Source: Halobacteriovorax marinus SJ (lineage in GTDB: Bacteria; Bdellovibrionota; Bacteriovoracia; Bacteriovoracales; Bacteriovoracaceae). From it: DNA of 64,000 nucleotides. The position numbers and the translations under genes are program-made. How positions within the stretch are numbered: the first letter of the stretch is position 1; each line of letters starts with the position of its first letter. Below, piece by piece: positions 12,007 to 12,685 of this stretch. The notes beneath the pieces are model-generated. The model saw only the letters and a program-made list of their open reading frames with translations, was not told where the DNA came from and made no database searches. The DNA is taken from the NCBI RefSeq assembly GCF_000210915.2, contig NC_016620.1:992001-1056000 (forward strand), in the 5' to 3' direction.

Positions 12007-12044
12007 TTTGAATTAACTCCTATAATTTAAATTCCGCCCACAAA

Positions 12045-12066
12045 CCCCACGAAAGTGGGGTTTTTT
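12045..12066 (+). terminator. terminator of the subtilase gene
   Basis: CCCCAC/GTGGGG stem with GAAA tetraloop followed by TTTTTT, 38 bp after the stop. It also isolates the riboswitch leader that follows. Confidence 0.92.
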
Positions 12067-12068
12067 AA

Positions 12069-12097
12069 TTGTCTTTACTATCAAAACAAATTAAAGT
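12069..12097 (+). promoter_or_regulatory. candidate sigma-70 promoter for the riboswitch transcript
   Basis: TTGTCT and TAAAGT (each 4 of 6 consensus matches) are separated by 17 bases. A start near 12104 would begin the transcript just before the first riboswitch stem. The preceding terminator makes a promoter here necessary. Confidence 0.45.
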
Positions 12098-12106
12098 CTT
12101 GCCATC

Positions 12107-12190
12107 GATAGATGAAGTAGGTGTGATTCCTCGCTGTCCCGCAACGGTTATAGTCCGATCTCTATCAAAAACATTTTCCACCCGAGGAGG
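12107..12190 (+). promoter_or_regulatory. compact cobalamin riboswitch (class II/AdoCbl-variant type)
   Basis: The core reads GAAGTAGGTGTGATTCC, then CTGTCCCGCAACGGTTA, then TAGTCCGA. These are the conserved GGTGxxAxTCC, CCCGCAAC and ACGGTTATAxTCCGA blocks of the small cobalamin riboswitches. GATAGA (12107-12112) pairs with TCTATC (12161-12166) to close the receptor. No large P7-P12 extension is present. TTCCTCG (12127-12133) can pair with CGAGGAG (12183-12189), which is the ribosome-binding site of the following gene, so control is probably translational. The motif match is seen directly; the ligand and direction of control are inferred from the family. Confidence 0.8.
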
Positions 12191-12196
12191 TATGAG

Positions 12197-12589
12197 ATGA
12201 CTTCAAATTATGAAGAAAGAGCGCGTATGTCTCAAACGCGTGTTACCAAAGCAGTTTTTCCCAATACTACTAACCACTACGACACTCTCTTTGGCGGAAC
12301 GGCCATGCAGTGGATGGATGAGGTTGCCTTTATCACAGCAACTCGTTTTACTCGCTTAAAAGTTGTGACTGTTTCAACAGATAGACTGGACTTTAAAAAG
12401 CCAATTCCTGCTGGAACTATTGTAGAGTTAGTTGGAAATGTCGTTCAAGTTGGACGCACAAGTATCAAGGTTCAAGTTCAGGTCTTTGTTGAAGCAATGT
12501 TAGAAGACTCAAGAGAGCTGGCACTAGAGGGGAGTTTCTCTTTTGTTGCCCTAGGAGAGGACTCTAAACCTACAAAGATTCTTGTTTAG
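12197..12589 (+). CDS. acyl-CoA thioesterase, hotdog fold (YciA-like)
   Basis: 130 residues forming one hotdog domain. TRVTKAVFPNTTNHYDTLFGG, MQWMDEVAFITA (with the catalytic-type Asp), and the strand VVTVSTDRLDFKKPIPAGTIVEL match the acyl-CoA thioester hydrolase family, which cleaves cytosolic acyl-CoAs to free acid and CoA. The GAGGAGG site just before ATGAC is part of the predicted cobalamin switch. A weak hairpin (12597-12619) follows before the next gene. Chain-length specificity cannot be told. Confidence 0.87.
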   Translation: MTSNYEERARMSQTRVTKAVFPNTTNHYDTLFGGTAMQWMDEVAFITATRFTRLKVVTVSTDRLDFKKPIPAGTIVELVGNVVQVGRTSIKVQVQVFVEAMLEDSRELALEGSFSFVALGEDSKPTKILV

Positions 12590-12685
12590 TGATAAATGTG
12601 GGCCTATGTAAGGTCCACACTTAGTGAATTGGTAGACAGTGAAGTTTTGCTATTGATAAGATATTCCTATTAAATAGGAGTTTCT

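Follow-up and report, generated by a model that had tools for sequence, protein, structure and literature searches.

A class-II cobalamin riboswitch before a hotdog thioesterase gene of Halobacteriovorax marinus, and the recurrence of this thioesterase in B12 operons of two phyla

Results

The window, that is, the whole stretch of 64,000 nucleotides of the Halobacteriovorax marinus SJ chromosome analysed here, carries a gene for a hotdog acyl-CoA thioesterase of the 4HBT type (TE; PF03061, 130 residues) at 12197-12589, preceded by an AdoCbl-II type cobalamin aptamer at 12096-12171. Both, as well as the elements of the leader described below, lie on the forward strand. The intrinsic terminator of the upstream subtilase (protease) gene (12042-12063, forward strand) separates that gene from the riboswitch transcript. 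A scan for sigma-70 promoters upstream of the leader found none, and the free-energy folding of the isolated leader gave no signal (z 0.80). Directly after the TE stop codon stands an inverted repeat, TGTGGGCCTATGTAAGGTCCACAC (12598-12622), which has no run of T and is a possible transcript end or processing site.

In a cmscan search the aptamer aligns with positions 1-81 of the 81 positions of the RF01689 model, with a score of 34.2 bits and an E-value of 3.8e-6 over the whole 3.44-Mb genome. The conserved core blocks GGTG, CTGTCCCGCAACGGT and AGTCCGA are present and sit where an earlier note on this DNA had placed them, the closing stem is present as well, and the class-I peripheral domain is absent. 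The P3 closing stem pairs GATAGA (12107-12112) with TCTATC (12161-12166), as that note had claimed, and covaries across the relatives, in which the two partners form 3.24 of five pairs versus 2.36 when they are swapped, none of 5000 permutations giving so high a value. The P4 hairpin, placed at 12119-12131 by the Rfam alignment, has AGG/CCT arms and the conserved loop TGTGATT, and its arms covary in the relatives (CTAG/CTAG, TTGG/CCAA and CTGG/CCAG). The L5 kissing-loop segment, UCCCG (12137-12141), is complementary to L13 and identical to the published L5 consensus, UCCCG (PMC10653944). The element has the core, the P3-P6 layout, the L5 sequence and the lack of a large peripheral domain of the class-II or AdoCbl-II cobalamin riboswitches (RF01689, clan CL00101), and it differs from the class by its score and by its thioesterase target. 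RF00174 gives just 18.4 bits on the leader, which assigns the element to the small type; the full-length RF01689 match and this low score together bear out the small class-II cobalamin riboswitch proposed from the letters of the window.

The covariance-model check leaves one point against the element: its E-value is significant genome-wide, but its 34.2 bits fall under the gathering score of 36.5 bits, and for this reason it does not appear in default-threshold output. Such a score could be that of a degenerate, non-functional relic; however, the complete core and the kissing loop are kept in all the members of the genus, and of the orthologous TE leaders, which range from 30 to 43 bits with RF01689, those of G003 (42.0 bits), G004 (38.9 bits) and G015 (43.2 bits) score higher and exceed the gathering score. 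A relic is extremely improbable, and we are nearly certain that the riboswitch is present and attached to the TE gene.

The genome of H. marinus (G000, 3,435,933 + 1,973 bp) holds only two comparable RF01689 elements, the second of which (34.3 bits, C1:304311-304385) precedes a gene for a btuB-type TonB-dependent receptor, and the search of the same genome with RF00174 yielded no good element. Among the 59 genomes searched with RF01689 (this one and its relatives), 23 have matches. In all five genomes of the genus there are two elements, which precede TE and btuB, respectively, and G015, a genome of a different genus, likewise has an element ahead of TE, so that the motif expected upstream of orthologues in close relatives was found there. 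Close orthologues of TE (more than 190 bits) are carried by eight genomes of the family, and a cobalamin riboswitch precedes seven of them: a class-II leader in six and a class-I riboswitch (RF00174, 55 bits) in G013. The orthologue of G019 has no riboswitch upstream. That one gene can be preceded by B12 riboswitches of either class argues that the control is selected.

Three observations concern other elements of the family. The class-I aptamer of G013 (L048 1971-2340, minus strand) is split, apparently within the peripheral P6 region, by the insertion of a tandem array of 4.2 copies of an 89-nt unit (95% matches). Elsewhere, AdoCbl-II elements lie before an NrdB-like gene (L018, in G012) and before a gene for a DUF6580-like membrane protein (L033, in G031), as judged by eye from the translation.

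Downstream of the aptamer, the P13-L13 hairpin ACC-CGAGGA-GGT (12180-12191) has a loop complementary to L5 with one A bulged, and the Shine-Dalgarno sequence AGGAGG (12185-12190) lies within L13 and the 3' strand of P13. The repressing env8 riboswitch, which responds to hydroxocobalamin and acts on translation, is built on the same plan, its P13 hairpin bearing the ribosome-binding site and kissing L5 with a bulge of 1-2 nt (PMC10907184). The TE leader shares with env8 the P13 that carries the ribosome-binding site and the bulged L5-L13 contact; unlike env8, its natural target is TE, and the contact is predicted here from sequence complementarity and compensating changes. In a sample of 24 AdoCbl-II leaders, a P13 of at least three pairs whose loop is complementary to all five L5 bases was found in 22, the chance of such a combination being about 9% per leader according to dinucleotide shuffles, and the arrangement is kept in the six TE leaders out of six. 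L5 and L13 change in compensation (UCCCG:CGaGGA, UGCCG:CGaGCA, UCGCG:CGCGA and UCCAG:CUgaGGA), P13 alternates between ACC/GGU and UCC/GGA, and the same expression platform recurs ahead of btuB in the genus genomes.

From this env8-like layout, in which P13 and L5 cover the ribosome-binding site, and from the platform shared with btuB, we infer translational repression by B12: the leader very probably acts as an OFF switch operated by the kissing loop. Upon binding of cobalamin, the CGAGGA loop of P13 would kiss UCCCG of L5 and hide the AGGAGG ribosome-binding site, and TE would not be made; under B12 scarcity the site would be free and TE would be produced. The opposite direction is the one implied by a switching pair that the earlier note had drawn between TTCCTCG of the core and CGAGGAG of the ribosome-binding site: in the apo form the core TCCTCG would pair with CGAGGA, and the ligand would free the site, turning the gene on with B12. 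The six-nucleotide complementarity does exist in the window copy taken alone, and one activating corrinoid riboswitch is known, a transcriptional one (PMC10653944). However, this pairing is not conserved and we rejected it, since the TE leaders L021, L022 and L030, all of which keep P13-L13:L5, lack CCTCG, and the longest complementarity in L013 and L031 is a different one. As the layout that masks the ribosome-binding site equals that of env8, activation by B12 is very unlikely.

TE scores 63.3 bits against PF03061 (gathering cut-off 20.6), and a hotdog thioesterase as the riboswitch target is supported. Its nearest solved structures are 2gvh and 2eis, and it can be aligned with the acyl-CoA hydrolases 5egl and 5hz4, residues N26, D41 and T58 aligning with the same residues of 5egl. 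Like the YciA and ACOT7-12 hotdog thioesterases (2gvh, 2eis, 5egl), it consists of a single hotdog domain. It is unlike YciA in its score of 52.5 bits against the YciA equivalog NF007970, far below the cut-off of 162, and the YciA identity was not given to it; in a tree built on few columns, TE branches apart from the other Bdellovibrionota thioesterases that were found, in a subfamily of its own.

When GTDB genome contigs were scanned for sequences related to the TE alignment, 80 close loci were obtained, comprising 52 from Bacteroidota, 25 from Pseudomonas or Pantoea and three others. With cmscan, by which the class-I elements of Bacteroidota were detected after a regular-expression scan for the core had overlooked them, 13 of the 52 Bacteroidota loci proved to have a cobalamin riboswitch no more than 2.5 kb upstream of TE and on its strand; no riboswitch was found downstream of TE or on the opposite strand. 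Twelve Bacteroidota genomes in which TE lies inside a longer operon were searched as a whole with RF00174, and in nine of them (L124, L113, L143, L133, L099, L080, L105, L131 and L141) a riboswitch immediately precedes the operon to which TE belongs, a metE or btuB operon. No riboswitch was detected at the operon head in Larkinella L092 (a metE operon) and L069 (a DUF6580 operon), and the contig of L117 is too short to judge. A cobalamin riboswitch is therefore found ahead of at least 22 of the 52 Bacteroidota homologues (13 close and nine at operon heads).

The arrangements are varied. The riboswitch precedes TE alone in Fluviicola, Chryseobacterium, Tenacibaculum and Pontibacter, and DUF71-TE in Flavobacterium; further riboswitch operons have the orders btuB-TE-DUF6580, DUF6580-CWC-BtuF-like-TE and CWC-TE. 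TE follows metE directly in Mucilaginibacter and some Pedobacter, whereas it comes after metE-fabH in other Pedobacter and after nrdA in further Bacteroidota loci. In several Pedobacter the gene that intervenes after metE (L095 1479-2492, also in L105, L110 and L131) encodes a FabH-type ketoacyl-ACP synthase III (NF006829, 392 bits). Several Bacteroidota genomes have only two cobalamin riboswitches, one of them at TE. In an independent sample of six further TE-bearing Bacteroidota genomes, drawn regardless of riboswitches, three have a riboswitch upstream (one being an AdoCbl-II element before nrdB-TE), one has metE upstream and one nrdA; the sixth genome has a divergent TE without a riboswitch and lacks methylmalonyl-CoA mutase. 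None of the eight Pseudomonas and Pantoea homologues tested has a riboswitch, and together with G019 they imply that not all members of the subfamily are under B12 control. As a side observation, proteins with DUF6580 (PF20221; L139 686-1664), Cys_rich_CWC (PF14375; L083 3123-3689) and DUF5522 (L084 2154-2402) recur in the cobalamin-riboswitch operons and look like further members of the B12 regulon.

Discussion

The mark of a B12-regulon member, a recurrent placement behind cobalamin riboswitches and in their operons in several lineages, is seen for TE in both Bdellovibrionota and Bacteroidota. A comparable case is the DUF71/COG2102-B12 subgroup, whose unproven role was likewise assigned to B12 metabolism from the gene context in a paper that does not mention TE (PMC3541065); DUF71 adjoins TE in Flavobacterium, and its protein family is a different one.

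The model we propose draws on the B12 enzymes encoded by the genome of H. marinus: methylmalonyl-CoA mutase (MCM) with MeaB, IcmF and MetH. The presence of MCM with MeaB and of IcmF renders plausible the link between B12 and acyl-CoA metabolism at which the earlier note had hinted. PrpD, of the methylcitrate route, was found neither in this genome nor in any other TE-bearing relative, and propionyl-CoA therefore probably depends on MCM. The correlation of TE with MCM across the relatives was dropped as uninformative, because mutases are almost universal (53 of the 59 genomes of the set and 45 of 48 Bacteroidota genomes), and their co-occurrence with TE says little. When B12 is low, MCM and IcmF would be left without cofactor and their acyl-CoAs would accumulate; TE would then hydrolyse short or branched acyl-CoAs (of the propionyl-, methylmalonyl- and isobutyryl-type), releasing the acids and CoA, and would thereby free CoA and limit the toxicity of the acyl-CoAs. 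It would thus act as a "third backup" beside the B12-independent MetE and NrdAB (class-I ribonucleotide reductase), the riboswitch-repressed isozymes with which its homologues share operons and riboswitches in Bacteroidota. Unlike them, TE is no isozyme of a B12 enzyme, and it would relieve the consequence of the failure of that enzyme. As a whole, the reading of a class-II OFF switch governing a thioesterase that relieves the blocked mutase pathways is the one we consider rather probable; for the part played by TE, whose substrate and physiology we infer from context, we see an even chance.

The neighbourhoods also lend themselves to another role. With the riboswitch and the OFF control equally real, TE could serve the uptake or salvage of corrinoids, or some other step that has no connection with the mutase substrates, such as a CoA-thioester step in the remodelling of lipids or of the envelope under B12 limitation; btuB, BtuF-like, DUF71, DUF6580 and T9SS surface proteins are indeed its neighbours in several Bacteroidota operons. 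However, many copies of TE sit with metE or nrdA/B, neither of which is a salvage gene, and we know of no corrinoid salvage step that uses an acyl-CoA thioester, so that we hold a role of this kind possible but rather unlikely. The Pedobacter order metE-fabH-TE counts in favour of an acyl-CoA role, since FabH consumes acyl-CoA, and it suggests that TE, with FabH in some operons, might tune the fatty-acid precursors by removing or channelling propionyl- or branched acyl-CoA primers, the odd- and branched-chain membrane lipids being thereby controlled at low B12. Most TE operons, like the locus of the window, nevertheless lack FabH, and such tuning, which we judge unlikely, would be a sub-case of the relief of the mutase block rather than its opposite. 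Outside the window, the same genome encodes a MerR-like regulator with a weak match to a B12-binding domain (L040, G000:C1:980172-980351; 24 bits), possibly a CarH-like photoreceptor.

Known targets of cobalamin riboswitches are B12 uptake, B12 synthesis and B12-independent isozymes, according to a large regulon survey whose main text mentions no thioesterase (PMC3766115). In the open-access papers we found no report of a thioesterase under a cobalamin riboswitch; a prior listing in RegPrecise, in the supplements of that survey or in subscription papers is possible. The riboswitch belongs to a known class, and what appears unreported is its target gene together with the recurrence of that gene in the B12 operons of two phyla.

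In conclusion, the recurrence of TE in B12 operons across two phyla suggests a backup for B12-dependent acyl-CoA metabolism. The acyl-CoA mutases are the third class of B12 enzymes common in these bacteria, and no riboswitch-controlled replacement for them is known to us; a thioesterase that shares the regulation of metE, nrdAB and btuB would close this gap. Could this hotdog subfamily belong, so far unrecognised, to the B12-repressed regulon of Bacteroidota and predatory Bdellovibrionota, serving as a backup for the AdoCbl-dependent acyl-CoA mutases? The arguments for and against seem to us evenly balanced. If so, TE would drain propionyl- and methylmalonyl-CoA during B12 starvation, a situation that recalls the methylmalonic aciduria seen in animals deficient in B12, and a physiological role would be assigned to a sporadic hotdog family of many environmental Bacteroidota. 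A low-scoring class-II element here points to a regulon common to two phyla, and the co-regulated thioesterase would provide a simple, testable model of how bacteria survive the scarcity of B12 without poisoning their CoA pool.
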